Assembly: GCA_947165255.1 (NCBI GenBank)
Contig: CAMUZR010000001.1
Location: forward strand, 186,001-250,000
Source of the DNA: an uncultured Bacteroidales bacterium
GTDB lineage: Bacteria; Bacteroidota; Bacteroidia; Bacteroidales; P3
Direction: 5' to 3'
Length of the DNA: 64,000 nucleotides
In this document: positions 1 to 19,835 of the stretch, piece by piece
Layout of the letters: each line of letters opens with the position of its first letter
Position numbering within the stretch: position 1 is the first letter of the stretch
Notes under the pieces: generated by a model
What the model was told of the DNA's origin: nothing
Databases searched by the model: none
The model's input: only the letters and a program-made list of their open reading frames with translations
Translations under genes and position numbers: made by a program

Positions 1-420
1 CTGGGTCGCGGCTACAACTATCCCGTCGCCCTCGAAGGAGCTCTCAAACTTAAGGAAATCAGCTATATCCATGCCGAAGGCTATCCCGCAGCCGAGATGA
101 AGCACGGTCCCATCGCCCTTGTCGACGAGGAAATGCCCGTCGTGGTCGTCGCCCCCAAGCACGGCATGTACGAGAAAGTAGTCAGCAACATACAGGAAAT
201 CAAGTCCCGTGGAGGCAGAATAATCTCCGTCATCACCGAGGGTGACACCACCGTCAAGGAAATGAGCGATTACTACTTCACCATCCCTGACACCCGCGAC
301 TGCTATGTCCCCCTCCTGGCCGTCATCCCCTTGCAGCTGCTTTCCTACTATGTGGCCGTTACTAAGGGCCGCAACGTCGACCAGCCGCGCAACCTTGCCA
401 AGAGCGTGACAGTTGAGTAG
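1..420 (+). CDS. glmS: Glutamine-fructose-6-phosphate aminotransferase, C-terminal part (5' truncated by window edge)
   Basis: The reading frame is open from base 1 and ends at TAG 418-420, giving 139 residues of the second SIS (sugar isomerase) domain. Motifs typical of GlmS are visible: [19 protein letters not shown], the [19 protein letters not shown] region, and the C-terminal end LAKSVTVE that closes this family. GlmS makes glucosamine-6-phosphate from fructose-6-phosphate and glutamine in the cytoplasm, the first step toward UDP-GlcNAc. The glutaminase domain and first SIS domain lie outside the window. The next gene overlaps the last 8 bases, so the two may be co-transcribed. Confidence 0.95.
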
Positions 421-3055: not shown

Positions 3056-3157
3056 CGGGTTCTTTTCCCCCTCTGCCTCCCTCACCGCAGCCCCACCCCC
3101 GTGTCCCCTCCATTCCATTTTTTTTGGCTTTTGAAAATTTTTTTCTAAAAAAATCTG

Positions 3158-3187
3158 TTTGTTTCAAATAAAGTTCTTATACTTGCA
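3158..3187 (+). promoter_or_regulatory. Bacteroidetes-type promoter for the AT-hook protein gene
   Basis: TTTG at 3158-3161, a 17-base spacer and TATACTTGC at 3179-3187, one base off the usual -7 box. It lies 16 bases upstream of the next start codon in an AT-rich stretch, so the 5' leader would be very short. Confidence 0.6.
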
Positions 3188-3203
3188 CAAAATTTGATGC
3201 TCC

Positions 3204-3935
3204 ATGAACCCACACAGAACTCACAAAAAGAACTTGATAGTCAGCTACAAAAACCTATCCGAAGAGCTCAAACAACTCTTCAAAGACACCTATCCCGAAG
3301 GATATAACGACTATCTGCAACGCTTCGACAAGCCCAATGGCGACTCCATCTTCGTTGTCCCCATGGAAACCGAGGACACCGTCTATATGGTCAAATTCGA
3401 CGTCAAAATCGACACCACCATCACCGATGCCGACGACGAGAAAGACTATTACGATGAAGAAATCGAGAAGGCCGACCACGAGTTCGCCCCCCTATCCGAG
3501 GCCATCGAAAAAGAAGAAAACAAAAATCCCCATACCGAGCGCTCCATACGCCACGGCGACTACGAGGAAGCCGCCGCATCCAACAAGCGCAAAGGCTCGC
3601 TCAGCGGGCTGGGCAAAGAACTGGAAGAAGCCTTTGACAACGGCGGCTACGAAGACGACGAATACGTCAACGAAGACGCCGACGGCGACCCCGACCAAGA
3701 CCCCGACGAAGACCTCGAACCCACCGACGAGGAACTCATGGACATCGACAGCGACTTCTACCTCCAGAACGCCGAAATCCCGCCCGAAGAGCTGGCCCTT
3801 ATGGAAGCCGACAAAGCCGCTGCCGCCAAGCCCAAACGGGGCCGTCCCCGCAAGAATGCCGCTGCCGCCCCCGCCGTCCCCGCTGCGCCCAAGAAGAAGG
3901 GTCGTCCCCGCAAGAACCCCCTCCCCGAAGAGTAG
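3204..3935 (+). CDS. Acidic hypothetical protein with two C-terminal AT-hook motifs
   Basis: 243 residues, function unknown. The N-terminal 85 residues look folded (SEELKQLFKDTYPEGYNDYL, then alternating hydrophobic strands). The middle is extremely acidic and low in complexity (runs of D/E around 80-200). The C-terminus carries two AT-hook cores, RGRPRKN and KGRPRKN, in an Ala/Pro/Lys-rich linker. AT-hooks bind the minor groove of AT-rich DNA, so a DNA-associated or nucleoid role is inferred. It has its own promoter upstream and a strong terminator downstream, so it is probably monocistronic. No known family was recognised beyond the hooks. Confidence 0.75.
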   Translation: MNPHRTHKKNLIVSYKNLSEELKQLFKDTYPEGYNDYLQRFDKPNGDSIFVVPMETEDTVYMVKFDVKIDTTITDADDEKDYYDEEIEKADHEFAPLSEAIEKEENKNPHTERSIRHGDYEEAAASNKRKGSLSGLGKELEEAFDNGGYEDDEYVNEDADGDPDQDPDEDLEPTDEELMDIDSDFYLQNAEIPPEELALMEADKAAAAKPKRGRPRKNAAAAPAVPAAPKKKGRPRKNPLPEE

Positions 3936-3964
3936 TTCCCGCACATAGTCAGTATATATACAGC

Positions 3965-4009
3965 GAGAGCGGATTTTTCCCACGTCGGAAAAATCCGCTC
4001 TCCCTTTTT
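3965..4009. terminator. Strong hairpin terminator between convergent genes
   Basis: A perfect 16-bp stem (3965-3980 with 3987-4002), a 6-base loop and then a T-rich run. It lies between the AT-hook gene (plus) and ackA (minus) and may serve both strands. Confidence 0.85.
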
Positions 4010-4048
4010 CCGTCGGCGTGGCGTCCGCAGGCGCCGAATGCCGCGGGG

Positions 4049-5251
4049 CTAGGCCTGGCGCACCAGCCGGTAGGTGTCCTCGGCAATCACGCGCTCCTCG
4101 TCGGTGGTCACCACCACCACCTTCACGCGCGAGTCGGGAGTGCTCAGCACGAAGTCCTCGCCCATCACCCCGTCGTTCTTGCTCATGTCGCATTCTATGC
4201 CCAGGAACTCCATATTCTCCAAAATGGGGCGGCGCATAAACCAGGCGTTCTCGCCTATGCCGCCCGTCAGCAGCAGCAGGTCGCAGCCGTTCATGGCGGC
4301 CATATAGGCCCCAATGTACTTCTTCACGCGGTAGGCAAAGGCGTCGAAGGCGTTGCTTGCGCGCACGTCCCCCGCCTGCTTGCCGGCGTAGATGTCGCGC
4401 ATGTCCTGCTTGTCGCCGCTGATGCCCAGCAGGCCGCTCTTCTTGTTCAGTATGACGTTCATCTCGGCGGGCGAGAGGCGCTCCTTCTCCATCAGATAGA
4501 GAATGGCGCCCGCATCCACGTCGCCGCAGCGGCTGCCCATGATCAGACCCTCTACGGGAGTCATGCCCAGGGTGGTGTCCACCGACTTGCCGTGGTCCAC
4601 GGCGCAGATGCTGGCTCCGCTGCCCAAGTGGCAGCTGATGATTTTCAAATCGTTCCAGTCGCGTCCGATCAGCCTGGCAGCCTTCTCGGCCACAAAGCGG
4701 TGGCTCGTGCCGTGGAAGCCATAGCGGCGCAGGTCGTACTTCTCGGCATACTCGTAAGGCAGGCCGTAGATATATGCCTTAGGGGGCATAGTGGAGTGGA
4801 AGGCAGTGTCAAACACGGCCACCTGCGCAATGCCGGGCAGGGCCTCCTCCATGGCGCGGATGCCCGCGAGGTTGCCGGGGATATGCAGGGGGAAAACGTC
4901 CTTAATGCTTTCGATAAGGCCAATCACCTTGTCCGTCACAATGCAGCTCTCCTTGAAAATGCTGCCGCCGAACACAATGCGGTTGCCCACCGCGCCAATC
5001 TCCTTCAGGTCCTTGATAACCCCAATCTCGGAGTCCGTCAGCGCCTTCAGTACAATCTTAATGCCCGCCGTATGGTCGGCGATAGGCAGCTGCTCATAGT
5101 GCTTCTGACCCTTGAACTTGTGGGTAAACTCACCCATGGCCAGGCCAATGCGCTCCAGCACACCCTTGGCCATCACCTCGGCATCATTATCCATGTCCAC
5201 CAGCTGGTACTTGATGGACGAACTTCCGCAGTTGAGAACTAAAATCTTCAT
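4049..5251 (-). CDS. ackA: Acetate kinase
   Basis: 400 residues from ATG at 5251 (MKILVLNCGSSSIKYQL), the normal length for AckA. Family motifs are present: NCGSSSIK at the N-terminus, DTAFHSTMP, GFHGTSHRFV and LLLTGGIGEN. The enzyme interconverts acetyl phosphate plus ADP with acetate plus ATP, the ATP-yielding last step of acetate fermentation in the cytoplasm. An in-frame extension upstream to 5458 is rejected because it crosses the -7 box and has no AckA-like sequence. No pta lies beside it within the window. The gene ends 40 bases from a shared terminator. Confidence 0.97.
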   Translation of the reverse strand: MKILVLNCGSSSIKYQLVDMDNDAEVMAKGVLERIGLAMGEFTHKFKGQKHYEQLPIADHTAGIKIVLKALTDSEIGVIKDLKEIGAVGNRIVFGGSIFKESCIVTDKVIGLIESIKDVFPLHIPGNLAGIRAMEEALPGIAQVAVFDTAFHSTMPPKAYIYGLPYEYAEKYDLRRYGFHGTSHRFVAEKAARLIGRDWNDLKIISCHLGSGASICAVDHGKSVDTTLGMTPVEGLIMGSRCGDVDAGAILYLMEKERLSPAEMNVILNKKSGLLGISGDKQDMRDIYAGKQAGDVRASNAFDAFAYRVKKYIGAYMAAMNGCDLLLLTGGIGENAWFMRRPILENMEFLGIECDMSKNDGVMGEDFVLSTPDSRVKVVVVTTDEERVIAEDTYRLVRQA

Positions 5252-5289
5252 ATTGTGTCTTTTATTTATTTCTATCCAAACTTCAAAAT

Positions 5290-5298
5290 GCAAAGATA
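5290..5298 (-). promoter_or_regulatory. -7 promoter box for ackA
   Basis: TATCTTTGC on the minus strand, the exact Bacteroidetes -7 consensus, about 40 bases upstream of the ackA start. A clear -33 TTTG is not seen at the expected distance. Confidence 0.7.
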
Positions 5299-5885
5299 CG
5301 CAAATAATCTGACACAGCAGCCCCCGCCCCTCATTTTTAACAAAAAAAACCACCTTCTCCGCCCTCCGCCCCTCACCGTCCGCTCCCAGCCGCCAGTCAG
5401 GACCTATTGCTGCCGGCCGCCATCGCCGCACCCAGAAGAAAAGCCACCCCCTCAGCACAACCTCCAGTCATGAGAAAAAACATAGAAAGTACCCCATCGC
5501 GCCGCGCCCAGTAGCCTGCCTCATAAGCCTCGCCCACCCCCTGCCACGCGTACTTTCCCAGCCCAAAAGAACCAGCATCGACTCAATCACCGCCCACCCT
5601 ATCGCTTCCCCCCTTGCAAAACGCCTTCCATTCACCCAAACACCGCCCAAGCCAACATGCAGAGCATTTCATCCTATCGGCGCCACATCCTCGTTACTGA
5701 ATCCATGATATATAGACGAACTATACACGATCAATCGAAGAACGACCGGCCCTTTAGCGAACCCGCAGCAAAATCCCCGCCACCACCCCACCAAATCAAC
5801 CACCCCTCCCGTCATGCCCCGCCGCCCCGCACACCCCCGCCCGCCCTCAATGAAAATAACTAGTGCCTATGTCAAAAAAAAAGTG
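5299..5885. other. Gene-poor, C-rich intergenic stretch at the left edge of the AT-rich island
   Basis: About 590 bases with no ORF that resembles a protein. Short ORFs here (for example near 5468-5650 on the minus strand and 5657-5863 on the plus strand) are Pro/Arg-rich translations of C-rich DNA with no start signal. Composition changes abruptly near 5865, where the AT-rich island begins. I see no tRNA, direct repeat or recombinase marking an attachment site. Confidence 0.6.
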
Positions 5886-5894
5886 TATCTTTGC
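5886..5894 (+). promoter_or_regulatory. -7 promoter box for the sulfur/defence-like operon
   Basis: TATCTTTGC, the exact Bacteroidetes -7 consensus, 22 bases upstream of the first operon start codon at 5916. No obvious TTTG lies at the usual -33 spacing. It is the only convincing promoter before the nine overlapping genes. Confidence 0.75.
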
Positions 5895-5915
5895 AGTCTA
5901 AATATATTATTATAT

Positions 5916-6776
5916 ATGGCTAACTATACCTTTTCTGGGCATGAATCTTTCGCTTGTAAGTCACTGTGGCTTAAGAAAGGATATGATTTCGTGCGAGAGG
6001 GAAATGATTTTAATTCTTCAGATGCTGTTGTCCATCTTGGTGTTGGGAAAAATATGGTTTCTTCTATCCGTTATTGGCTTAAAGTATGCCAAATAGTGGA
6101 AGAAGGTAATATAACGAGGTTAGGAGAATACCTTTTTGATAACCAGACTGGTAAGGATCCCTATCTAGAAGATTTGGCTACTCTTTGGCTGCTTCATTTT
6201 AATTTGGTGTTCAACGCGCAGGCTTCCATTTATCAGATATTTTTTTGTGAGTTTCAACGAGAACGTATGCAGTTTGTCAAAGAACAACTGGTTAATCACG
6301 TTAAACACAAGTTGTTTGATGAGGGAATGAGGAATTCATATAATGAGAATACCGTTAAGAAAGACATCGATGTGCTTTTTCACAATTATGCATTGCCTCG
6401 AAAACCAAAATCTAATGAGGATTTCTCTATGTTGTTCATCGACCTTGATTTGTTGCGTATAACACCAGACGGAAAGGGATATTATTTCAATATAGAGGGC
6501 AAGCGTAAAGTACCAATGCAGATATTTCTATATGCATTGGTCAAGCTAAAGGATAAACAAGGTGACAGCACTATTTCTTACGAAGAGATTCGTCATCACA
6601 TTGGGATGGCTTATTGTATGACTGATGCGGAAATAATTGATATGCTCAAACAACTGGCTAACCGTTATTCGGATAAGTTGGCATACAGTGATGAGTCTGG
6701 CATTAGGCAAATACAGTTTATAGAAGATATTCAAGAGAAACAAATACTGGATGATTACTATGAAGCGAACGTTTAA
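5916..6776 (+). CDS. DUF4007 family protein, first gene of the putative DNA-phosphorothioation-type operon
   Basis: 286 residues from ATG 5916, chosen because it lies just after the -7 box; the longer frame from 5814 runs through the promoter. The N-terminus MANYTFSGHESFACKSLWLK and the following KKGYDFV segment are characteristic of DUF4007 proteins, which from memory are often found beside PAPS-reductase/DndC-like genes in defence islands. The rest is mostly helical, with a possible winged-helix C-terminus (SYEEIRHHIGMAYCMTDAEI). Molecular function is unknown; a DNA-binding or target-recognition role is only inferred. It overlaps the next gene by 17-26 bases, indicating translational coupling. 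Confidence 0.8.
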   Translation: MANYTFSGHESFACKSLWLKKGYDFVREGNDFNSSDAVVHLGVGKNMVSSIRYWLKVCQIVEEGNITRLGEYLFDNQTGKDPYLEDLATLWLLHFNLVFNAQASIYQIFFCEFQRERMQFVKEQLVNHVKHKLFDEGMRNSYNENTVKKDIDVLFHNYALPRKPKSNEDFSMLFIDLDLLRITPDGKGYYFNIEGKRKVPMQIFLYALVKLKDKQGDSTISYEEIRHHIGMAYCMTDAEIIDMLKQLANRYSDKLAYSDESGIRQIQFIEDIQEKQILDDYYEANV

Positions 6777-9700
6777 TCTTTCGGCCAACATCGAAAATGG
6801 CTTTGCCGAGGGTTCTCACTACATAGTAACCCCCAATGCAAAGAAAGCTATAAGCCATATTGTCAATGGCTTTAATTCGGGTGTGCATTCCTATACCATA
6901 ATTGGTACATACGGCACGGGAAAATCGAGTTTCTTGTTAGCGATGGAAGCAGACTTGAAGCGAGCCAATAAAAAACCACTATTATTTGATTCTCGAACTC
7001 TTTCTGAGGCTAAAGACTATGAAGTCCTGAATATAGTGGGCGACTATTGCGAACTACTCACCCTTTTGCAAAAAAAACTGGATTTTGTCAATTCTGGTGA
7101 AAGTATTATTGATGCACTCAATCGTTATTATAAAAAATGCCAGAAACAAGGTAAATTCCTGGTGATAGTCATTGACGAGTTTGGCAAGATTCTGGAACAT
7201 GCCGCAAAGAATAATCCAGAAAAGGAACTATATTTTCTTCAGCAATTTGCTGAGTACGTAAATCATCCCTCACGCCAAATACTACTGCTAACTACACTCC
7301 ATCAGAATTTTGGCTCGTATGCTAAAAACTTAACTGAAGAACAGAAAAATGAGTGGAAAAAAGTAAAAGGTCGTTTTAAGGAGGTCACTTTTGCTGAACC
7401 GATTGAGCAACTCTTACATCTTGCCTCCATCCAATTGCATGAAGAAGCACATGGTGTGCCCCTTGCCAATGCAAAGAATCTATATCGACTTGCTGTTGAG
7501 ACAGGATTTGTAGCAAAAGATTTTGAGGAGTCCACTGCGTTGCAGCTATATCCGTTAGACCTCTTTTCGGCTTTTGCGGTAACTTCTGCCATACAACGTT
7601 ATGGACAGAATGAGCGTTCCCTGTTCTCTTTCCTCTCCACCAAAGGCGAGGACTCTGTTTCCGAATTTCGTTCAGAGGAACGTCTGACATATAATTTGGC
7701 CATAGTCTATGACTATATCACATACAACTTCCAGACTGCCCTGACTGACGCCAGCGCAGACTCTATGTCTTGGGCAGCAATGCGGTGTTCTATTGAGCGA
7801 GTGGAGAAAGCTAAATGGGATACAGAGGAGCAAGAACTCACTGCCATCAGACTTATCAAGGCTCTTGGTTTGCTGAATACATTTGGTAATGCGGGATTCC
7901 GTCTAGACGTTTTACAATTCTCCAGCTATGCAAAGTGGGCGATGAATATTTCAAATGCGGAAGAGGTATTGCAAAGTCTAATCAATATGAAAATTGTCCG
8001 CTATGCAGATTACAGGGGACGGCTCGTATTGTTTGAAGGAACAGACATTAATCTGGATGCCGAATTCCATGAGGCTGGCCTTCGTGTTCCCCGTCCTGAA
8101 TATTATATTGATAAACTTAATCTTTTCTTTCATGAGAGGATTGCACCTGTCAAAGCCCATTTCTATCAGAAAGGCACACCTCGTTTCTTTGATTACAAAA
8201 TACTGGAGGCTCCTGAATTTACAACACCTGATGGAGATACAGATGGCTATATAGAGCTTATTTTTTCAACCAAGAAAAACGCTCTAAAAGAATTAAAAGA
8301 CCGAAGTGCGTCTACAGGCGTTCCAATTGTTTTCGCATACTTCAAGGAAACAGAATCACTTATTGACCACCTTTACAATATTGAAAAGTATGATTATTTG
8401 TTAAAGAAAGTCGTTATTGAGACCGACAAGGTGGCGCGTGACGAATTCAAAAAACTAATGGAGCACGAACAAGACTTGCTGAATAAAGAACTTAGTGATA
8501 GTCTCTTTTCGTACAACAATAAGGTTGTTTGGATTTATGATGGTGAAGAAAGAAACGTGCGTTCTCATCGTGATTTCAATAAATTGCTATCACAGGTTTG
8601 CGATAAGGTCTACTATAAAACCCCGGTGATGAACAATGAGTTGTTCAACCGTCACAAACTTAGCGGCAGTATTTCGACGGCCCGTAAAAACTATTTGACA
8701 GCGCTTATCGAACACAATGCAGAAGAAGACCTTGGATTTCCCAAAGATAAGTTCCCTCCAGAAAAGACCATATACTACTCTCTTTTGAAGGATACGGGAC
8801 TGCACCAGAATGGCGAATTCTCTGATGCCGACATCAAAGAAGGGTTCAGGCCTCTCTGGGATGCCTCCGAGGGGTTTTTACAAAGTACCGTCAACAAACC
8901 TCGCCGCATTTCCGAACTGATAGGGATACTGACAGACAAGCCCTACAAGGTGAAACAGGGTTTGCTTGACTTCTGGATTCCCACTTATCTGTTTATCCGT
9001 AGGCAGGATTTTGCCCTCTATGATGCCACTCGTGGCAGCTTTATTCCAAATGTCAATATGGAATTCTTTGACCTGCTACAGAAACATCCTCGAGACTATC
9101 AAGTGAAAAAGTTTGCTGTCGACGGAGTCAAACTCAGTTTCTTCAACCAATATCGCCGTTTTGTCAATCTCGGCGATGAGTTCTCGATATCCACTCAGAG
9201 TTTTATTGAGACCATCAAGCCCTTCCTTAGTTTCTATGTCCGGCTGAACGACTATACCAAACATACTCGCAAGTTCAACCACCGTTCCACAATGCGCTTC
9301 CGCGATGTACTTGCCAAAGCCAAAGACCCGGAACAAGCCTTTTTCGAAGACTTGCCTGACGCGCTGGGTTTTGACCGCTCAAAGATGAAAGACGAACAAA
9401 CAATCAACGAGTATGGACAGATCATTGAGCGCGCCATTCGCGAGCTTCGCACCTGCTACACCAATCTGATTGACCGCATTGAGGAGCGCCTTGTTGATGA
9501 ATTCGGTCTTGATTCTGGCGACTACTCCGAATACATAACCGAAATCCGTCAGCGGTTGGCCAATGTCAAGACACATCTGCTCACCGGCAAACAGAAGGAG
9601 TTTTATCACCACGTGATGACCGAATACGACAATCGCACGCAGTGGTATCAGTCTATCTGTTATACCATACTTGACCAGCGCCTCGACACTCTGCGTGATG

Positions 9701-9993
9701 AGCAAGAAGATAAACTTGTTGACGACCTCATCTATATGTTCCGTGAATGTGAAAAGTATTCCGACATATCACGACGGTTGAAAGAGGCCGACAATAGCGA
9801 CGCTTACTCATTCGATATGGTGACCAATCAAGGCACAAACATCCGCACACAGACCTACATACTTCCCGAAAAAGACAAGAAAAGATCTTCCGAACTGGAA
9901 GATAAGATAAATCGAATTCTTTCTGGCAATAACAACGTGGATGTATGTACACTTCTTTCCCTGTTGAACAAAAAAATGAAAGGAGGTGATTAA
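6751..9993 (+). CDS. Giant P-loop ATPase (1080 aa), operon component
   Basis: About 1080 residues; the start could be ATG 6751 or ATG 6760 (MKRTFNLSANIENGF), both inside the end of the DUF4007 gene. Near the N-terminus is Walker A GTYGTGKSS (about 51-59), then Walker B with a following acidic residue, FLVIVIDEFGK (about 136-146), and a sensor-like LLLTTLHQNF. This resembles AAA+/STAND-like ATPases of defence systems such as BrxC/PglY, but I cannot assign the exact family. The remaining 850 residues are mainly helical with no recognised catalytic motif. Likely a large ATP-driven DNA-binding or scaffold component. The second half is visibly less AT-rich than the first. It ends with a textbook Shine-Dalgarno site for the next gene. 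Confidence 0.8.
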   Translation: MITMKRTFNLSANIENGFAEGSHYIVTPNAKKAISHIVNGFNSGVHSYTIIGTYGTGKSSFLLAMEADLKRANKKPLLFDSRTLSEAKDYEVLNIVGDYCELLTLLQKKLDFVNSGESIIDALNRYYKKCQKQGKFLVIVIDEFGKILEHAAKNNPEKELYFLQQFAEYVNHPSRQILLLTTLHQNFGSYAKNLTEEQKNEWKKVKGRFKEVTFAEPIEQLLHLASIQLHEEAHGVPLANAKNLYRLAVETGFVAKDFEESTALQLYPLDLFSAFAVTSAIQRYGQNERSLFSFLSTKGEDSVSEFRSEERLTYNLAIVYDYITYNFQTALTDASADSMSWAAMRCSIERVEKAKWDTEEQELTAIRLIKALGLLNTFGNAGFRLDVLQFSSYAKWAMNISNAEEVLQSLINMKIVRYADYRGRLVLFEGTDINLDAEFHEAGLRVPRPEYYIDKLNLFFHERIAPVKAHFYQKGTPRFFDYKILEAPEFTTPDGDTDGYIELIFSTKKNALKELKDRSASTGVPIVFAYFKETESLIDHLYNIEKYDYLLKKVVIETDKVARDEFKKLMEHEQDLLNKELSDSLFSYNNKVVWIYDGEERNVRSHRDFNKLLSQVCDKVYYKTPVMNNELFNRHKLSGSISTARKNYLTALIEHNAEEDLGFPKDKFPPEKTIYYSLLKDTGLHQNGEFSDADIKEGFRPLWDASEGFLQSTVNKPRRISELIGILTDKPYKVKQGLLDFWIPTYLFIRRQDFALYDATRGSFIPNVNMEFFDLLQKHPRDYQVKKFAVDGVKLSFFNQYRRFVNLGDEFSISTQSFIETIKPFLSFYVRLNDYTKHTRKFNHRSTMRFRDVLAKAKDPEQAFFEDLPDALGFDRSKMKDEQTINEYGQIIERAIRELRTCYTNLIDRIEERLVDEFGLDSGDYSEYITEIRQRLANVKTHLLTGKQKEFYHHVMTEYDNRTQWYQSICYTILDQRLDTLRDEQEDKLVDDLIYMFRECEKYSDISRRLKEADNSDAYSFDMVTNQGTNIRTQTYILPEKDKKRSSELEDKINRILSGNNNVDVCTLLSLLNKKMKGGD
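9981..9990 (+). promoter_or_regulatory. Unusually strong Shine-Dalgarno site
   Basis: AGGAGGTGAT lies 7 bases upstream of ATG 9994 (measured from the end of AGGAGG). It is fully complementary to the usual 16S 3' end. Such sites are rare in Bacteroidetes, and it fixes the start of the sulfurtransferase gene. Confidence 0.85.
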
Positions 9994-11100
9994 ATGAATA
10001 TACGGCATATATTAGGTATTTCCGGTGGCAAAGATAGCGCAGCACTTGCTATTTATCTGAAACAGAAATACCCGAACTTGGGGATTGAGTATTATAATTC
10101 AGATACGGGATGTGAATTAGACGAAACTGAAGCTCTAATCAATCGTCTAGAAGCGTATTTGGGAAAGATTGTTCGATTAAAGGCTGTAGAAGTTGAAAAT
10201 AGTCCAGAACCAACACCTTTCCATCATTATTTGAAAGCCATGGGTGGTTTTTTGCCATCGCCACAAGCGCGTTGGTGTACTAAAAAAATGAAACTTGATC
10301 GGTTCGAGGAATTCGTTGGCGATGACTATGCAATCTCTTATGTGGGCATTCGAGGGGATGAAGATAGGGATGGATATATTTCATCTAAGCCAAATATTCA
10401 AGCAATATTCCCATTTAGAAAAAATATATGGAGTATCGATGTTATCAATAAAGTGTTGCATAATGACAATATAAAACTGTTGATTGATATATACGATAAA
10501 CTATGTCCGGACGGAATTATGAAAGAAGATATAATGGATATCGTGAGAAAACCTCTTTCGAAAACATTCTTCTATTCAAAAAAAATGAATGCTTTACTTG
10601 ATTTTGATATCAAGTTATTCAATCATGTGGTTTTTGAATATCTGAAAATGACTGATTATCCTGTGGGAAAATTGGATGAATTTCCATTGTTAGATAATAC
10701 GGATGTTCTTGTAAAGGACGATATTTTTAGAATATTGAGGGAAAGTGGAGTCGGAGTTCCTGCTTACTATGAGGAGATACCCTTTGAAGTGGATGGAAAA
10801 CAGGGAACGTATTGCCGTAGTCGGTCGGGCTGTTATTTCTGTTTCTTTCAACAGAAGATAGAGTGGATTTGGCTCCTGGAACAACATCCTGACTTGTATA
10901 AAAAAGCAATGGAATTTGAAAAAGACGGATATACGTGGAATCAGAATGAAAGTTTGGAGGAACTATGCAAACCAGAGCGTGTGCGTCAAATCAAACTTGA
11001 TATAATTAAACGCCAAGAAGAAAATAGAAAGCAAGAAAAAGGCACAACCCTTGCAGATATTCTTGGCGATGAAATAATGTGTGCAAATTGTTTCATATAA
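9994..11100 (+). CDS. PAPS-reductase/DndC-like ATP-pyrophosphatase (sulfurtransferase)
   Basis: 368 residues. The N-terminus has the PP-loop HILGISGGKDSAALA, followed by YYNSDTGCELDET and ARWCTKKMKLDRFE, which match the phosphoadenosine-phosphosulfate reductase/DndC superfamily. The C-terminal half has a Cys cluster CRSRSGCYFC and an FFQQKIEW motif, as expected for the 4Fe-4S-binding part of DndC/SspD-type enzymes; a final CANC lies at the very end. In Dnd/Ssp systems this protein activates the DNA backbone and transfers sulfur supplied by a cysteine desulfurase. No desulfurase (DndA/SspA) is in the window, so a housekeeping IscS/NifS would have to supply sulfur. It directly follows the ATPase stop codon (TAAATG). 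Confidence 0.87.
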   Translation: MNIRHILGISGGKDSAALAIYLKQKYPNLGIEYYNSDTGCELDETEALINRLEAYLGKIVRLKAVEVENSPEPTPFHHYLKAMGGFLPSPQARWCTKKMKLDRFEEFVGDDYAISYVGIRGDEDRDGYISSKPNIQAIFPFRKNIWSIDVINKVLHNDNIKLLIDIYDKLCPDGIMKEDIMDIVRKPLSKTFFYSKKMNALLDFDIKLFNHVVFEYLKMTDYPVGKLDEFPLLDNTDVLVKDDIFRILRESGVGVPAYYEEIPFEVDGKQGTYCRSRSGCYFCFFQQKIEWIWLLEQHPDLYKKAMEFEKDGYTWNQNESLEELCKPERVRQIKLDIIKRQEENRKQEKGTTLADILGDEIMCANCFI

Positions 11101-11111
11101 AATTAAAAAAT

Positions 11112-12230
11112 ATGGAATACATAATAAAAGAACAGACAATTCAAAGCCTTTATGAGCTAATTAAAACCAATATGATAGACCTCCGTCCTTCATATCAAAG
11201 GAATTTTATTTGGGGAAAGAAGGATCAACAATTACTTGTTGATTCAATATTAAGAGGCTGGCCTCTGCCAACATTTTTTTTATACAAGAGACCCAATGGC
11301 CGATATGAAATGGTAGATGGACAACAGAGAGCTGAAACGATCTGTAGATTTATTAAAGGAGACATTACAAGTTCAGATAAACAGAAATTTGAAAGCATAG
11401 ACAAACAATTATTTTTATCATATCGAATCAATATAACTGAGATAACAAAAGTTGATGAAGCTGGTGGTGAAAATATATCTGAATTTTATGCTTTAGTTAA
11501 CAAGCGTGGAGTTCATCTGAACCCAGCTGAAGTAAATAAAGCTCAGTATGCAGAACATCCATTTATGAGACTTGTTGAGAATTTATTAAGCACAAACGAA
11601 ATAACCAATCTAAACATTTTTACTGACAAAACCATAAATCGAATGAACGACAGAACTTTGATTGAGGAGTTGGTCGCTTATTTGTATGGAGGCATCTTTG
11701 ATAAAAGAGATCTTGTAAACGAAATATATCAAAACAATATTTCCGAAGAGAAGGTTCAATCACTAAAGGAAACATTTATGCAAACAATAAGTCGCATTGT
11801 AGTGTTGAACGATAATTTCCCGATTAATGACACTCGATATAGGCAAAGAAATGATTTTTTTACATTGTTCACATTCATTCATGAGCATTTTTCTGAACTT
11901 ACTGATGAATTATTGAAATTCCAATATGGATTATTATGTTGGATTGACAGAGAAGAACTAATTCGTCCCTCCAATGATGAATGTGAATTATTACAAAAGT
12001 ATGCCTTTTCTTGTGTAACGCAATCAAACTCTAAAAATGCAAGAAAAACCAGATTGGATATATTTGATAAAATATTATTACACAAAAAAGAAGTAATAAG
12101 CGATGAATATGAACGTTTCCTTGAAGACTTACGGGATATTTACAATATTGAAATAATTCCAGAAAGAGAAATCTGTGGATATTCACTAATCGACTATAAT
12201 AAAATGGAAAACTCGGATAATGATGAATGA
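11112..12230 (+). CDS. DUF262 (ParB/DGQQR-type) protein
   Basis: 372 residues from ATG 11112; an upstream in-frame ATG at 11079 lies inside the previous gene and is not preferred. The DUF262 fold is marked by LRPSYQRNFIWGKKDQQLLV, ILRGWPLPTFFLY and VDGQQRAETICRFI (about 66-79). The DGQQR motif binds or hydrolyses NTP in GmrSD and in SspE, where it senses phosphorothioate and licenses a C-terminal HNH nuclease. Here the C-terminal half shows no HNH/DUF1524 signature, so this is a DUF262-only protein that might sense modification and act through partners. It overlaps the kinase gene by 11 bases. Confidence 0.85.
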   Translation: MEYIIKEQTIQSLYELIKTNMIDLRPSYQRNFIWGKKDQQLLVDSILRGWPLPTFFLYKRPNGRYEMVDGQQRAETICRFIKGDITSSDKQKFESIDKQLFLSYRINITEITKVDEAGGENISEFYALVNKRGVHLNPAEVNKAQYAEHPFMRLVENLLSTNEITNLNIFTDKTINRMNDRTLIEELVAYLYGGIFDKRDLVNEIYQNNISEEKVQSLKETFMQTISRIVVLNDNFPINDTRYRQRNDFFTLFTFIHEHFSELTDELLKFQYGLLCWIDREELIRPSNDECELLQKYAFSCVTQSNSKNARKTRLDIFDKILLHKKEVISDEYERFLEDLRDIYNIEIIPEREICGYSLIDYNKMENSDNDE

Positions 12231-13176
12231 CCTTCTGAAAATAGAGTGTTCTATCGATTTTGACCAAATAATGAATGGCTCCGATGGGGAGATATTGATT
12301 GGTGAAGAAAAATATATAATTCGCAGGTTGGATAAAAACATCCGTGCCAATAAAGGAGGCAATTCGTGGGTGATGAAAATGTTTCAAATTTCGGATGATG
12401 GAGATGATTCATTTGACAGTGCTCCAGCTGGTATAATAAAAGTCAATAAAGCGGATTATTATATAAAACGAAGAATCTTCAACCGCAAGATGAACAAAAG
12501 AATAAATCAAGAAATTGACGCTCTAAAAGAATGCAAGAAACAGAAAGCACAGTATGTAATTTCTATTAATCTTGATGGGATTTTATTCAATTATAATGGG
12601 ACAGCTCATCGATTCTATACCATGGAAGTGGCAGAATGCGATTTAAAACAGTATATGGAACGATATGATTTGGATTTTCTTGAGCGTATTGAAACCTGCA
12701 TGGAACTTACAAAATCTTTAAGAGAATTGTGGGAATTAGGATTCTATCATAGAGACATTAAACCTGATAATTTTTTTTATCTTGAAACTGGAGAATGGAA
12801 AGTCGGAGATTTAGGGCTTGTCGCCAAAAGGAATACACCAGAAACATATGATGGCGAAAATGAGTTTGTTGGGCCAAAGGGGTGGACTTCTCCAGAAACA
12901 ATGAACAAATATCTTGTTGCAGAGGGTGATGGTAGGTTTGATAGGATAATTGACGAAAAATCAGATATGTTTCAATTGGGGATGGTATTCTGGTATATTA
13001 TGCAAGGGAATGCTCCTATTGGCTGTATTATGGAAAAAGATTTTTTAGAAAACAATCATGATTTATATAGTCTAATAAGAACAATGATTAGTCATGACAA
13101 AAGATTAAGGCCACAGACCTTTGATGACATAATTTACAGACTGAATCAGATTGCAGATAAGTATTTACTGGGCTAA
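12220..13176 (+). CDS. Serine/threonine protein kinase-like protein
   Basis: 318 residues. The C-terminal two thirds form a Hanks-type kinase: catalytic loop HRDIKPDNF (about 176-184), metal-binding GDLG in place of DFG (about 197), APE-like region GWTSPET, and an ECDLKQYM hinge. The N-terminal lobe is divergent: NKGGNSWVMKMF could be the glycine loop and lysine. There is no membrane segment or sensor domain. Kinases accompany some defence systems (PglW in type 2 BREX, Stk2), so regulation or activation of operon partners by phosphorylation is inferred. Its stop overlaps the next start (TAATG). Confidence 0.85.
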   Translation: MMNDLLKIECSIDFDQIMNGSDGEILIGEEKYIIRRLDKNIRANKGGNSWVMKMFQISDDGDDSFDSAPAGIIKVNKADYYIKRRIFNRKMNKRINQEIDALKECKKQKAQYVISINLDGILFNYNGTAHRFYTMEVAECDLKQYMERYDLDFLERIETCMELTKSLRELWELGFYHRDIKPDNFFYLETGEWKVGDLGLVAKRNTPETYDGENEFVGPKGWTSPETMNKYLVAEGDGRFDRIIDEKSDMFQLGMVFWYIMQGNAPIGCIMEKDFLENNHDLYSLIRTMISHDKRLRPQTFDDIIYRLNQIADKYLLG

Positions 13177-15410
13177 TGCTGTTTGACTGTTCATATCCAC
13201 CTCATCGCCGATACAAATCTGGCACAGAATGGGAACCGATTGGTTACTTTTCGGAATGCCTGTGCAATAGCACAAGGTTTGATTTGATGTTGGGCTTTTT
13301 TAGTTCTTCTGCTATACGTATATTAGCATCTGGATTTGCGGTATTTCTTTATAATGGTGGAAGGATGCGTATGATTATTAATAATCTTTTGTCACCTCAA
13401 GACAAACAAACTATTATATCAGGGCAGAATAGGACTTTTCCAGACGTAATTGATATAACAGACATCTCTTCTATTCAAAAGAGCCTTTCCAACGAAGGAA
13501 AACATTTTTTTGAATGTCTTGCCTGGCTGATTTCAAATAAGCGAATTGACATAAAAATAGTTCAGCCCAAAGACCACAATGGCATCGCGCATACCAAATA
13601 CGGACTTTTTTCTGATGAGAAAAACAAAGTGTCTTTTGAAGGCTCCTGCAATTTTACAAGAGCGGCGTTGATTGACAACATTGAGAGTTTTTCAGTGTCC
13701 TGCGATTGGGACGGTGAAATATTCAAATCCCAAATAATTAGTATTGAAAGTGATTTTGAACGAGCTTTTAAAGAAGAAGATAATAATCTCAGTTATATAA
13801 ATGCTGAACAAGTAATTGACCAGATAAGTAATACTTTTGGAGGGAAAGACCTTGAGGTATTACTTGAACAAGAGATGCAACTCTCGAGTATTCATATTAG
13901 GCCATATGTAGCGTCAGCTATTGATGCTGCTCAAAAGAAAGTCTCTGAAATTGCTAATAACGATGCTCTGAAAAAAGAGACGCCTCATTTCCCATATTCT
14001 AGTGGTCCTCGAGATTATCAGAAACAAGCCTTCGAAAATTGGAAAGAAAATGGTCAAAAAGGCCTCTTTGCAATGGCCACAGGAACGGGTAAGACTATTA
14101 CAGCACTGAATTGCCTGTTGGAAGTTTATAAAAAATGCAACTATTATAAAGCAATTATACTCGTTCCGACTCTTACATTGGTAGAACAGTGGGAAAGTGA
14201 GTGTTTGAAGTTCGGATTTAAAAACATTATTAAGATATCCTCTAAAAACAAGTGGAATGATGAGATAGACGGACTTCTTTTAAGAGAAAAGGTTTCAAAG
14301 CAATCAGATTTATCGTTCGTAATTATTTGTACATATCAATCTTATTCTAAAAGAAAAGTATTTGATGTGTTGAATGGGTTTTCAGCCAGAACGATGTTTG
14401 TTGCAGATGAGTGTCACAATATGGGTTCTCCTCAAATGCTTAAGTTGTTGCCTCAAATTAATCAAGCACGTAGAATCGGTTTGTCGGCAACTCCAAATCG
14501 TCAGTTTGACGAAGCCGCAAATGAAGCAATCTATTCTTTCTTCAATGCCACAGATGGCTACGCTTTTGAATACTCTATGGAAGAGGCCATTGCTAATGGC
14601 GTCCTTTGTAAATACTATTACTACCCTCATTCCGTGTCGCTTACAGCTGAAGAAATGAATGAATATTCAAGACTCACAAAGAGAATTGTAAAATACTATA
14701 ACTCTGAAAATGGAAAATTCAAAGACGATCCCATATTAACGGCTTTACTACTTGCTCGAAAACGAATAATCCATAAAGCGACAAATAAAGTTGAGGTATT
14801 CCGTTCGATAATAGAACAACATTATGCGGATCACGGAAACCTTAACTATACTCTTGTATATGTTCCTGAAGGGAATGAGGTGAGTGATTATAAAGGGATT
14901 GAGGTCTTTGACGAAGAGGAGATTAATGAAGATGTGATAACTCAGAGCATTATAGACACATATACTACAGTAGTTAAAGATGTAGATAAGCGAATAACTG
15001 TAAGAAAATTCACATCTAATAGCACCGAACGTGATGAAATACTAAATCAGTTTGCGAAAGGAGATATATCTGTCTTGACATCAATGAAGTGTTTAGACGA
15101 AGGTGTTGATATTCCTCGTGCGGAAATGGCAGTTTTCTGTGCAAGCACCGGTAATCCGAGACAGTTTGTTCAGCGAAGAGGAAGGATTTTGCGTAAACAT
15201 CCAGATAAAGAATATGCCATAATTCACGATTTAGTAGTCATCCCTACAATCAATGATGACGAATGTTTTGAAATGGAAAGAAATCTTCTCAAGAATGAAC
15301 TTGAACGAGTAAGAAATTTTGCATTACTTTCTCGAAATAGTGCAGATTCATTTAGTGAATTGCTACAAATAATGAATTATTATAATCTTAACCTATACGA
15401 CAATGCATAG
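13176..15410 (+). CDS. SF2 DEAD/DEAH-type helicase with N-terminal PLD-nuclease-like domain
   Basis: 744 residues. Residues about 1-200 resemble a phospholipase-D-type nuclease: IAHTKYGLFSDE followed by EGSCNFTRAAL (one HxK...D/GSxNxT half-site). The helicase has Walker A ATGTGKTITAL (about 301), motif II ADECHNMG (about 409), motif III GLSATPNR, and motif VI QFVQRRGRILRK (about 663). The architecture matches DISARM/type III-like and 'DNA phosphorothioation system restriction enzyme' helicases I recall from dnd neighbourhoods. Most likely a DNA translocase-nuclease that attacks unmodified DNA. The stop overlaps the next gene by 8 bases. Confidence 0.87.
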   Translation: MLFDCSYPPHRRYKSGTEWEPIGYFSECLCNSTRFDLMLGFFSSSAIRILASGFAVFLYNGGRMRMIINNLLSPQDKQTIISGQNRTFPDVIDITDISSIQKSLSNEGKHFFECLAWLISNKRIDIKIVQPKDHNGIAHTKYGLFSDEKNKVSFEGSCNFTRAALIDNIESFSVSCDWDGEIFKSQIISIESDFERAFKEEDNNLSYINAEQVIDQISNTFGGKDLEVLLEQEMQLSSIHIRPYVASAIDAAQKKVSEIANNDALKKETPHFPYSSGPRDYQKQAFENWKENGQKGLFAMATGTGKTITALNCLLEVYKKCNYYKAIILVPTLTLVEQWESECLKFGFKNIIKISSKNKWNDEIDGLLLREKVSKQSDLSFVIICTYQSYSKRKVFDVLNGFSARTMFVADECHNMGSPQMLKLLPQINQARRIGLSATPNRQFDEAANEAIYSFFNATDGYAFEYSMEEAIANGVLCKYYYYPHSVSLTAEEMNEYSRLTKRIVKYYNSENGKFKDDPILTALLLARKRIIHKATNKVEVFRSIIEQHYADHGNLNYTLVYVPEGNEVSDYKGIEVFDEEEINEDVITQSIIDTYTTVVKDVDKRITVRKFTSNSTERDEILNQFAKGDISVLTSMKCLDEGVDIPRAEMAVFCASTGNPRQFVQRRGRILRKHPDKEYAIIHDLVVIPTINDDECFEMERNLLKNELERVRNFALLSRNSADSFSELLQIMNYYNLNLYDNA

Positions 15411-15642
15411 CGAAGACGAAATGCTTAAATTGGTTCTTTCGGATAAAAACTTATGGGAAATGTATGGGTTTAATCCGAATGACTATCCAACAATGAAATC
15501 GGCACTGTCAGCCGAAGACTATCCTGTTGTAGTTGCTGTTGCAAAAATAATACGCAATCTCAATGGCAAACAGGATAAATCAAAGTACAAAGAAGTATAT
15601 AAAGAGATTTATGAATACCTTAACAACAACATAATCTCATGA
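15403..15642 (+). CDS. Small hypothetical protein (79 aa) of the operon
   Basis: 79 residues, no recognised family. It is charged and predicted helical (NLWEMYGFNPNDYPTMKSAL, then VVVAVAKIIRNLNG, then a Lys/Tyr/Glu-rich end). It overlaps the helicase upstream by 8 bases and the zinc-hook ATPase downstream by 4 (ATGA), so it is translationally coupled on both sides, which supports it being a real gene and perhaps a subunit of one of its neighbours. No metal-binding or catalytic motif is seen. Confidence 0.7.
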   Translation: MHSEDEMLKLVLSDKNLWEMYGFNPNDYPTMKSALSAEDYPVVVAVAKIIRNLNGKQDKSKYKEVYKEIYEYLNNNIIS

Positions 15643-17789
15643 AAATAAAAAACATATCCATAAAGAACTTCAGAAGTTACTATGGCACTCATACCATTGA
15701 ACTATACGAAGGCCTGAATATTTTCATCGGAGACAATGGCGACGGGAAAAGCACTCTATTTGATTCGTTAAACTGGCTTTTTGACACCACTCTGACAGAA
15801 CAGAAAAATGAACGTCTTATATCTAAAAAATGTTTAGCTCACTTAGTCTCTGGAGGCGATGCAGAAAGCGTTTCTGTTTCTATGACATTTGAGCATGACG
15901 GAGAAAAATATATTGAAAAGTCTTTTGACTTTTTCCTAGATGCAAATGGTAATTTGAAAACTGCAAACTATCAATTTGTCGGATATGAAGAATATGGATC
16001 AGAGCGCCAAAGAGTTGATGGACGCAGATTACTTGACCGGTGTTTTGATGCATCAATACGTCAATATTGTCTTTTTAAAGGAGAGGAAAAACTTGATATC
16101 TTTAATACGGACAATGCATTACAATACCTTGTCAATACTTTCTCCGAAGTTCATGATTTCGACATGTTTTATACAGGCGATGAAGAAGGGTTTACAGAAT
16201 TTGCTGTTCAAAATGCAAAACGTGCTAGAGATGTCGCTATCAAAAATGCAAATGCTACTACCCAAAAAGAAAGAGATTTAAATACAGCAATTGGAGAAAT
16301 CAGTAGACAATTGACATCTGTAGAACGAGATTTGAAGGATGCAGAAAATAACTATAATAAATATGACAAGCTACTGACAGATATAGAAAGCCACGCAGAA
16401 GCAAGTGAAGACTTGCGTAGAATTAATGATCGAATAAAAAATCTGAAAGAGCGAAAGGAGAATACCGAGCTGAAAATTGATGATGCATACTCGAAGAAGC
16501 TACTAGATGATTATTGGATCATGTGTGGTATGTCTCCGGTAATAGAGTTGTTTAGTGAGAAAACAAACGCTTTCATTAAAGAAAAACAGAAGCTGGAAAT
16601 AAAAGAAGCCGAAAAAAAAGGGAAAAAAGAAGCTATAAAAGAAATAGCGGCAGGAGTTCTTCCTCTTGATCCATTGATTCCTGACAGGAAATCGATGGAG
16701 AATATGATACATGATGAATTTTGTAAAGTTTGTGGCCGTCCCGCACCAAAAGGAAGTGATCCTTACAACTTCATGGTTCAGAAACTGCAGAGTCTACTTG
16801 ATTCGATTTCCGGAGAAGTACCCAATGACGAAGAGGATTCTAATTTGTTTACCAACAACTATTCTGTAGAATTGCAACAAATCCTGCGTAATGTTGATTA
16901 TATGACAATGCGAATAAACGGATTGCAGAATGAAATTTCCGGTAGTGTCAAAGAAAATAATCGATTAAAGATGCTCGCCAAGAATTTTCAGCGAAGCATT
17001 GACGACGCAATAGATGAAAAGAACAAACTCCTATCGAAAAATAACAATATCACAGAGGAAGAGCTTGACACCGATTACAAAAACATTTCCAACTGGAATA
17101 AGTATAGAAACGATGCAGACCATAGTAGAGAAAAGTTGAAAATTAGGAAAAAAGAATTGAACGACAAACTAACAGAATTACAAAGTGAATTGGCAGGAAT
17201 ATCGAAGGATGATAAATCAAAAACGGCAGTACTCGTTCATCAAGCATTGCAATATATTTGTTCTGCATTTGCTTATGCCAAACAAAAAAATACCCGCAAT
17301 TTTATTGAACTGCTAACAACACATGCAAATGGTTATTTGAAAAAACTCAACGTCGATGATTTCCATGGTGTGATTCAGATTATAGAACGAGCTAATGGAG
17401 CGGCTCGATTGCAACTTGTTGACAATGATGGAACCATTGTTACCAATCCCAATACGGCACTTGAAACATCAAAATTCATGTCTGTCTTGTTCGCCATATC
17501 AGACTTAACCACACTGAAACGAGAAAATGATTATCCTTTAATATTCGATGCACCAACAAGTTCATTCGGACCACAAAAAGAACGTGATTTCTATGCGGCA
17601 ATCTCAAGCGTCAACAAACAATGTATTATTGCGACAAAAAGTTTTTTGAAAGAAGACGGATCCCTTGATATGCCAAAGATAGAACATCAAAAAGGAAAAA
17701 TATTCCGGCTGAGTCTAAATCCTGACTGTGATCTCGAAAAGATGTCGACGATTCAAACTAACATTGAACCCATTAAAATGAATATTTGA
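15639..17789 (+). CDS. Rad50/DndD-like SMC-type ATPase with zinc hook
   Basis: 716 residues. N-terminal MKIKNISIKNFRSYYGTHTI and Walker A GDNGDGKSTLFDSLNW (about 32-47), a long charged coiled coil, a central CxxC hook CKVCGRPAP (about 361-369), a second coiled coil, then a signature-like segment and Walker B YPLIFDAPTSSFG (about 629-641) at the C-terminus. This is the RecF/RecN/SMC class that includes DndD. In Dnd systems DndD works with DndC and DndE to place sulfur on nicked DNA. DndD-like identity is inferred from its place in the operon with a DndC-like gene. It starts in ATGA overlap with the 79-aa gene. Confidence 0.87.
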   Translation: MKIKNISIKNFRSYYGTHTIELYEGLNIFIGDNGDGKSTLFDSLNWLFDTTLTEQKNERLISKKCLAHLVSGGDAESVSVSMTFEHDGEKYIEKSFDFFLDANGNLKTANYQFVGYEEYGSERQRVDGRRLLDRCFDASIRQYCLFKGEEKLDIFNTDNALQYLVNTFSEVHDFDMFYTGDEEGFTEFAVQNAKRARDVAIKNANATTQKERDLNTAIGEISRQLTSVERDLKDAENNYNKYDKLLTDIESHAEASEDLRRINDRIKNLKERKENTELKIDDAYSKKLLDDYWIMCGMSPVIELFSEKTNAFIKEKQKLEIKEAEKKGKKEAIKEIAAGVLPLDPLIPDRKSMENMIHDEFCKVCGRPAPKGSDPYNFMVQKLQSLLDSISGEVPNDEEDSNLFTNNYSVELQQILRNVDYMTMRINGLQNEISGSVKENNRLKMLAKNFQRSIDDAIDEKNKLLSKNNNITEEELDTDYKNISNWNKYRNDADHSREKLKIRKKELNDKLTELQSELAGISKDDKSKTAVLVHQALQYICSAFAYAKQKNTRNFIELLTTHANGYLKKLNVDDFHGVIQIIERANGAARLQLVDNDGTIVTNPNTALETSKFMSVLFAISDLTTLKRENDYPLIFDAPTSSFGPQKERDFYAAISSVNKQCIIATKSFLKEDGSLDMPKIEHQKGKIFRLSLNPDCDLEKMSTIQTNIEPIKMNI

Positions 17790-17791
17790 TT

Positions 17792-18367
17792 ATGGCAGCA
17801 CGAAATACAACAGATAGTCTATTCGCATTGTGGGCTAAACGAGATGCATATTTTGAAACTCATTTCCAAGATGAGATTATCAGCAAGTTCTCTGACTATG
17901 GAGTCGGCTCTTCAAAAAGCAATGAGGCAAAGGGTAAGACGTTTGGTGGTGGATATGAAATGTTTATCATCGCATTTTTTATCGGTCTATATTCCGATAG
18001 TCGCCGTGAATTAGACAAAAGCCTTGACAAAAAGAAATTCGGCCAGCCAATAGAATACTGGGGTAACCTCGACTCCAGAACCGGCAGAAAGTCTTATCCA
18101 GAAATACGTAAACATATTTTCGCTGCATTGATAGCCAAGACTGACATCGACCTGATTGCGCTAGAAAAAGGAGAAATCGAAGCCGGCGACGTGGTCTCAA
18201 CATTGATTGATGCTATGAATGAATATGCCAACTACGGTTTTTATTACCTCGCCGAAAAACTGAAAGACAATCCCAACTCTCTGTATCGCAACTCCGGCTT
18301 CCTTGACATCTTCCTCGACTTGACACGAAAGAAACAACCCAAAGACGAAGAACTGGAAGAACTATAA
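17792..18367 (+). CDS. Hypothetical protein (191 aa), last gene of the operon
   Basis: 191 residues from ATG 17792, two bases after the zinc-hook ATPase stop; an in-frame TTG at 17786 is possible. No recognised family. It is mainly helical with a glycine-rich turn and hydrophobic helix (KTFGGGYEMFIIAFFIGLYS), a GRKSYPEIRKHIFAALIAKTD segment and an acidic tail. Its position after the DndD-like gene is where DndE (DNA-binding, nicking) sits in dnd clusters, but it is longer and I see no DndE signature, so it may be an analogue or something new. No terminator is seen after it. Confidence 0.75.
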   Translation: MAARNTTDSLFALWAKRDAYFETHFQDEIISKFSDYGVGSSKSNEAKGKTFGGGYEMFIIAFFIGLYSDSRRELDKSLDKKKFGQPIEYWGNLDSRTGRKSYPEIRKHIFAALIAKTDIDLIALEKGEIEAGDVVSTLIDAMNEYANYGFYYLAEKLKDNPNSLYRNSGFLDIFLDLTRKKQPKDEELEEL

Positions 18368-18498: not shown

Positions 18499-18530
18499 TT
18501 TGACATTTGAAATAAAACCCGTATCTTTGC
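18499..18530 (+). promoter_or_regulatory. Promoter of the DUF4143 ATPase gene, first copy of a repeated promoter
   Basis: TTTG at 18499-18502, a 19-base spacer and TATCTTTGC at 18522-18530, an ideal Bacteroidetes promoter. A 38-base block containing it (18495-18532) recurs with three mismatches at 19882-19919. Confidence 0.8.
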
Positions 18531-18609
18531 ACCCTAAACAGAAATAATCAAATGTATTGAAGAATAAGGACATTTGGAAAACCATACAACAAGTTCAAAA
18601 AGGAATAAA

Positions 18610-19835
18610 ATGCAGAAGCAGGATTATATATATCGCAAACAATACATGCAGCAACTGCGCAACCTGAAAGACCAGAATATCATAAAGGTCATTACTGGTG
18701 TGAGACGTTGCGGGAAGTCAACACTGTTGATGATGTTTGCAGACGAGCTGATAGATAACGGAATTCAAAAAGAGCAAATACAGTTTTATAATTTTGAAGA
18801 CCTCGACACTCTTGCAATAGGTGACATCTACCAAATTCATACCCTCATTAAGCAACGTCTGGTGGAAGATAAACCAAACTATATTTTTCTGGATGAGGTT
18901 CAGAATGTGAAAGAATTCCAACGGCTTGTTGACAGCCTTTATATCCTAATGTAGATGTATATATCACAGGTTCCAATGCGTATATGCTCTCTGGCGAGCT
19001 GGCAACACTACTTACCGGTCGTTATGTGGAGATTAATATTCTACCATTACAATTTTCTGAATATTACAATTTTATAATGTTAAAATCGCCAAACTTGACA
19101 AAAACAGAAACTTTGGCGAATTTTATATATTACGGTGGTGTACCTGAATATGTTAAGCAAATACAGGTTGATGAAAAACAAGCCGATTTGTTTGCTGATA
19201 GCATATTAAGAACGATTGTGGAAAAAGACATCTTCCAACGTCTCAATATTACCAATAAACACGACTTCAACAAGATACTTGATTTTATATTCGATTCAGT
19301 AGGCTCATATGTGTCACCTCGTTCTGTCTCAGACACATTGAGAAGTCAAGGAACTGTGGTTGACAAAGAGACGGTGGCCAAATACCTCGATGCAATGTGC
19401 GAGGCTTATCTAATCTACAAGGTTCCTCGATTTGAAATAAAAGGCAAAGGTTTATTGCAAACCCTAAACAAATACTATGTTGTAGACCCCTGTTTCGCCA
19501 AAGTACGCTTAAAGAAAGGAATTCTAAAAGATCGTTCTCATTGGCTTGAGAATATGGTATACCTTGAACTTGTCCGACGCAACAGAGATGTATTCATCGG
19601 CAAGCGCAACAATCTGGAAGTTGATTTTGTTGTCACAGACAACGACGGCTATACATCCTATTATCAAGTGGCTTGGACAACTGAAAATCCAGAGACATTG
19701 GAACGTGAATTGGCATCGCTCCGAGCAATCAAAGATTCCAACCCGAAGTATTTGCTGACGACAGACAACGACTTTAACCCTGTCTACGATGGAATTAGAA
19801 AACTGAACGTGATTGACTGGATGTTGCAGTCATAA
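18610..19835 (+). pseudogene. AAA ATPase with DUF4143 domain, split by a frameshift
   Basis: The first part (ATG 18610 to TAG 18952-18954) carries Walker A TGVRRCGKSTLL and Walker B YIFLDEVQNV; the second continues in another frame from about 18948 (VDVYITGSNAYMLSGELAT) to 19835 with the DUF4143 nuclease-like C-terminal domain (LEVDFVV). A single base missing near 18946-18949 joins the two into a normal protein of about 408 residues. This family is common in Bacteroidetes and of poorly defined, possibly defence-linked function. Either a recent inactivating mutation or a sequencing error. An upstream ATG at 18574 is in frame but less like family starts. Confidence 0.85.

Follow-up and report, generated by a model that had tools for sequence, protein, structure and literature searches.

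We analyzed a 64,000-nucleotide stretch of the genome of an uncultured Bacteroidales bacterium (contig CAMUZR010000001.1, positions 186,001–250,000; hereafter the window), which carries a candidate defense operon at positions 5916–18367. The open reading frame listing gives nine open frames tightly packed on the + strand, with spacings of -26 to +11 bases under the chosen starts. The GC content of the operon is 0.376, compared with 0.586 in window positions 1–5800 and 0.547 in 20000–64000. The original prediction, made from the sequence alone, had described a tightly overlapping, AT-rich nine-gene operon with DUF4007, DUF262, protein kinase, PLD-helicase and zinc-hook ATPase domains, whose low GC suggested transfer and whose type resembled DNA-phosphorothioation (PT) defense. 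These points stand: the domains were confirmed (PLD below threshold, the hook as a CKVC motif), gene content supports a predicted PT-type defense operon, and gene content together with GC indicates that the operon was probably acquired by transfer. The operon is likely a hybrid in which an Ssp modification core, a Pbe restriction cassette and a DUF262-kinase pair are joined, a reading based on the gene identities, their intact motifs, their conserved linkage and a single promoter motif.

That motif, TATCTTTGCA, lies on the + strand at 5886–5895 and ends 20 bases upstream of the sspB start codon, an ATG. Its general form, TANNTTTGCA, which we take to be a promoter motif of the Bacteroidota type, matches 15 times in the window against 2.3 expected. 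On the + strand the occurrence at 5886–5895 is the only one before that at 18522–18531, such that one motif precedes all nine genes and the operon itself contains none in this orientation.

An Ssp core and a Pbe cassette in one operon

The first three genes are, judged by their sequences, SspB, SspC and SspD, a predicted PT modification core encoded together. Gene 1 (sspB, + strand, 5916–6776, 286 aa) encodes a DUF4007 protein, the predicted DNA-binding/nicking subunit of Ssp modification, and matches the PADLOC SspB model at 4e-90 and the solved SspB structures 6juf/6lb9 at 1.2e-16 in a sequence search. The original prediction had seen no SspB signature, which was wrong because DUF4007 is SspB. 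Gene 2 (sspC, + strand, 6751–9993, 1080 aa) had been called a giant ATPase; it is an AAA+ (Orc/Cdc6-type) ATPase and can now be named, scoring 1213.8 bits with SspC vs 198.1 with BrxC. Gene 3 (sspD, + strand, 9994–11100, 368 aa) encodes an ATP-pyrophosphatase/PAPS-reductase-like sulfur transferase with an SGGKDS loop and conserved cysteines, and the former label DndC-like gives way to SspD (292.4 bits, 1e-87, vs 22.7 bits for DndC). Among 12 aligned SspD sequences, D14 is identical in all and K13 in 11, and cysteines C95, C280, C283, C363 and C366 are conserved in 12/12. PDB sequence searches with SspD and with SspC returned no match.

Genes 6–9 fit the PbeABCD cassette. Gene 6 (pbeA, + strand, 13176–15410, 744 aa) encodes an HKD (PLD) nuclease fused to an SF2 helicase; it scores 1044.2 bits with PADLOC PbeA and 421.5 bits with TIGR04095, below the latter's cut-off of 600, and shows a sub-threshold PLD domain followed by a ResIII helicase. 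Gene 7 (pbeB, + strand, 15403–15642, 79 aa) encodes a small, fast-evolving protein that fits PbeB by its position between A and C and by its size (66 aa in Haloterrigena jeotgali); it matches no model beyond a chance-level NCBIfam one, and its counterparts at the same place in loci L013–L016 match at 1.3e-13 to 1.9e-6. Gene 8 (pbeC, + strand, 15639–17789, 716 aa) encodes an ABC ATPase with AAA_15/AAA_23 domains, a Walker A motif and a CxxC hook, here CKVC, both of whose cysteines are present in 12/12 aligned sequences (window included); PADLOC scores it almost alike as LmuB (3.3e-21) and PbeC (5.2e-21).

The last gene (pbeD, + strand, 17792–18367, 191–193 aa, with an alternative TTG start at 17786) is, on its predicted model, a DndE cognate at the level of fold. 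In a VIA re-alignment this model aligns to DndE, at a Z that is attainable by unrelated models, and we assign the DndE fold because all listed entries are DndE and because of the TIGR04062 chain. A direct comparison of pbeD with TIGR04062 gave no match, the protein being too diverged. In Foldseek the pbeD model found no match below E 1.5, with DndE absent from the list, and a PDB sequence search with the dnd_assoc_4 set returned no match. The earlier statement that no DndE is present is thus doubtful at the level of fold. With gene 1 being SspB and the model of the last gene aligning to DndE, we rejected the idea of an unfamiliar system lacking both.

A Dnd system was likewise rejected: TIGR03183 has no match in this genome at E 0.001, and no DndC or DndD lies beside Pbe here. 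No F, G or H component of DndFGH or SspFGH appears among the PADLOC matches listed for the nine proteins (for genes 5 and 8, the best 25 families). To say that the set fits none of the Dnd, Ssp or BREX layouts and forms a distinct system was too strong, since three genes are SspBCD and four fit PbeABCD, both catalogued. What survives of it is the combination: neither Ssp with Pbe in one operon, nor a DUF262-kinase pair between them, was found catalogued in a literature search of main texts.

Each known system shares part of this layout. SspABCD-SspE has SspB, SspC and SspD together with an adjoining DUF262 protein bearing the DGQQR motif, whereas the present operon has no sspA, a DUF262 protein without the HNH half followed by a kinase, and PbeABCD in addition. 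DndCDEA-PbeABCD of H. jeotgali (the 'CxC ABC-ATPase/DndE' systems) has the same pbeA-B-C-D order of PLD-helicase, small protein, zinc-hook ATPase and DndE-fold protein, but its partner is DndCDE rather than SspBCD, the hook in the window is CxxC, and the pbeD here has no TIGR04062 match. SspABCD-SspFGH also couples Ssp marks to a restriction module other than SspE, although that module is FGH and not Pbe. IscS-DndBCDE-DndI has a DUF262 sensor acting with PT, but DndI keeps its HNH nuclease and the core there is Dnd.

PMC7464106, PMC10853773 and PMC12707154, which name both PbeA and SspC, describe no Ssp-Pbe operon in the parts compared. The authors of PMC7464106 queried genomes for ssp as well as pbe and tallied 'PT genes with pbeA-D', so their data may contain the co-occurrence; the same paper describes histidine kinases adjacent to SspE in 211 Acinetobacter strains. 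According to PMC10853773, some DndF proteins carry a fused kinase domain. Pbe was described as the restriction partner of Dnd; a later re-analysis noted cassettes that lack Dnd, some of them accompanied by methylases, and doubted that Pbe substitutes for DndFGH (PMC10853773). Further PT and BREX literature compared, in part, comprised PMC12839542, PMC8053081, PMC7461809, PMC11931770 and PMC11662687.

Linkage of Ssp and Pbe in other genomes

The association recurs well beyond the window. We searched an order sample of 393 genomes, taking PbeA at E ≤1e-100, and a phylum sample of 395 genomes, taking PbeA at E ≤1e-40; PbeA was present in 11/393 and 10/395, respectively. With the window left out, PbeA of the order sample adjoins Ssp genes in 7/10 cases (L014–L019 and L022) and DndCDE in 1/10 (L020), and 2/10 loci (G371 and G282) break off at contig ends and were counted as unresolved. 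In the phylum sample, again leaving out the window, six of nine are Ssp-adjacent (L092–L095, L099, L100), two Dnd-adjacent (L096, L098) and one neither (L097). Pooled, 13/19 PbeA relatives are linked to Ssp, 3/19 to Dnd and 3/19 to neither or unresolved, with the caveat that the window's PbeA was the query for both samples and Ssp-linked forms may be over-sampled. The 13 Ssp-linked loci are not all whole cassettes: in L022 PbeA is truncated with no PbeBCD after it, L019 ends within PbeA, L095 shows no more than part of SspD where the locus ends, and L099 and L100 gave no match for PbeB or PbeD.

Genome-level co-occurrence points the same way. With the genome of the window left out, DUF4007 is found in 8/10 PbeA genomes vs 23/392 overall (p 1.6e-9), and the overlap of DndC with PbeA in the order sample is not above chance (1 genome, p 0.39). 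DUF4007 occurs in 24 genomes, whose surroundings were considered except for G003, G107, G111 and G148. A scan of the genome contigs gave one distant locus. On a tree of 23 PbeA sequences, the Ssp label (13 rows) needs three changes, at least two of them forced by well-supported branches; losses could explain some of these changes, and the placement of the long Rhizobium row is uncertain. On a Rhizobium indigoferae plasmid, typed as conjugative, PbeBCDA faces SspABCD (L074, 6409–17437), and on a plasmid from Ruegeria PbeABCD is accompanied by DndCDEA. The SspBCD-PbeA-PbeC operons of L099 and L100 belong to a distant family of the phylum and to a separate PbeA branch.

In many loci of Bacteroidota, and on the Rhizobium plasmid, the Pbe cassette is thus paired with SspBCD, a PT writer other than Dnd. 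Should PbeABCD prove to act on Dnd marks as well as Ssp marks, its recognition target could be tested by swapping writers.

Separately, YhcG-like nuclease and/or Schlafen AlbA_2 genes lie directly behind pbeD in three of the relatives (L014, 16251–18500; L015, 16193–18432; L016, 15639–16991).

The DUF262-kinase pair and the proposed mechanism

Between the two modules lie genes 4 and 5. Gene 4 (+ strand, 11112–12230, about 372 aa, with an alternative GTG start at 11079) encodes a DUF262 (GmrSD_N) protein, a ParB-like sensor-type domain without an HNH nuclease: GmrSD_N is its only Pfam domain, and the nuclease half of SspE (DUF1524/HNH) is not present. PADLOC places it closest to NsnA (4.5e-28) rather than SspE; we found no published work on NsnA relevant to gene 4. 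The DGQQR motif (D80–R84) is invariant across a 40-row DUF262 alignment, and P37, Y39 and Q40 of the P-x-Y-Q pocket are nearly so. Because P-x-YQ is a general feature of DUF262 proteins, it is weakly specific for an SspE sensor domain. BrxU was the only match in a PDB sequence search (E 0.011) and the best in Foldseek (E 1.5e-3). Gene 5 (+ strand, 12220–13176, 318 aa) encodes a Ser/Thr-type protein kinase with a Pkinase domain and intact catalytic residues, its best PADLOC model being mad6 (5e-22). The pair stands behind SspBCD, without Pbe, in both of the other kinase-bearing genomes found among 395 (L067 and L068). In these two loci, large proteins of about 820 aa, similar by eye in their printed residues, face the SspBCD-DUF262-kinase operon (L067, 5192–7672; L068, 7136–9595). 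Elsewhere in the genome of the window, contig C39 encodes another DUF262 protein, of 789 aa, whose GmrSD_C match falls below threshold (L101, 22–2391); it is possibly a GmrSD/SspE-like enzyme.

In the model we infer for PT chemistry, self/non-self logic and kinase output, a host cysteine desulfurase would supply sulfur and SspBCD would mark host DNA with PT at a short motif. PbeC and PbeD, an ABC ATPase with a DndE-like partner, would scan DNA, and PbeA, a nuclease-helicase restrained by PbeB, would halt the replication of unmarked DNA or cut it. Published views differ on this last step: the authors of the H. jeotgali study hold that Pbe stops the virus without cleaving its DNA directly (PMC6459918), whereas Rakesh et al. 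argue for cleavage by Pbe (PMC10853773). The DUF262 protein may sense PT or nucleotide state, like the N-terminal half of SspE, and pass its signal to the partner kinase rather than to a fused HNH nuclease, providing a second arm that stops the phage or the cell. Such a pair would link a mark on the DNA backbone to protein phosphorylation, and no such pair appears in the parts of the literature compared.

Sulfur supply is a weak point of the hybrid reading, as there is no sspA among the nine genes; the only strong desulfurase match in the genome is of SufS type, alongside six weaker Aminotran_5 matches not assigned to a class. IscS can replace SspA and DndA according to PMC8092258, in the compared parts of which SufS goes unmentioned.

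How the pair acts can be approached through what occupies the slot after sspD elsewhere. It holds a full SspE in L054, an HNH protein plus a methyltransferase-HIT protein in L051, GHKL ATPase pairs or triplets in L014, L017, L052 and L056, and a 183-aa-type protein with DndB in L022 and L058 (also adjoining sspD in L060 and L092, but reversed); in L015 it is empty before PbeA. In L053 (9516–11406), DUF262 and SIR2_2 proteins are encoded after SspBCD, an apparent split of sensor and effector that is the closest parallel to DUF262 plus kinase and, by analogy, favors an effector. We tentatively propose a 'split SspE', in which a nuclease-less, PT-sensing DUF262 protein acts through a Ser/Thr kinase encoded separately and the mark is thereby read by phosphorylation beside Pbe in a dual-arm operon, and in which the slot after sspD is a plug-in site for swapped outputs (HNH nuclease, SIR2, kinase, GHKL ATPase, DndB).

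It is also possible, though we would not presume it, that the pair is a regulator, sensing PT occupancy and, by phosphorylation, tuning SspBCD or keeping PbeABCD inactive as long as the host lacks its marks. It would then take the place of DndB, also ParB-like, in Dnd and some Ssp loci, and by analogy the DndB genes found in the same slot favor this role, as does the grouping of DndB, SspE and DUF262 in one ParB-like superfamily (PMC11662687). Against it stand the effector-like genes (SspE, DUF262 with SIR2, HNH) that fill the slot in other loci, and the presence of SspBCD-DUF262-kinase without Pbe in L067 and L068 means that regulating Pbe cannot be its sole job. The slot counts do not decide between effector and regulator.

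We consider it unlikely that two independent neighbors, Ssp-DUF262-kinase and PbeABCD, have merely been packed into one operon with no shared PT logic. Each does occur alone (the former in L067 and L068, Pbe in L097), and Pbe cassettes also lie near methylases, both in loci compared here and in PMC10853773; against this, the genes overlap within one operon, Ssp genes and PbeA are neighbors in 13/19 relatives, and the Ssp label needs at least two changes on the tree. A decayed or inactive island is more improbable still: the missing sspA, a split ATPase gene just downstream and the truncated PbeA of L022 would fit decay, but all nine frames are open with their catalytic motifs intact. Least probable by far is a relative of BREX type 4 (brxPCZL) in place of Ssp, which has homologous PT core proteins in SspB/C/D (PMC12839542) but is contradicted by the far higher score of gene 2 with SspC than with BrxC, by the lack of PglZ, as originally stated, and of BrxL in the PADLOC tables for the nine genes, and by the genome's sole PglZ match being a response-regulator protein (BrxL was not sought genome-wide).

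Surroundings of the operon

The sole PglZ match lies in the window at 50379–51938; this protein of 519 aa combines a Response_reg with a PglZ domain and resembles PorX, not a BREX PglZ. No Rfam match was found within window positions 1–24000. The flanks of the operon, searched in a genome of the same genus (G340), match different contigs, leaving no empty site readable there. The genes on either side are ordinary, with acetate kinase to the left and LD-carboxypeptidase to the right, after the split ATPase gene. The AAA_14 and DUF4143 parts of that one ATPase type lie in separate frames (18634–18954 and 18984–19835), and the gene looks broken.

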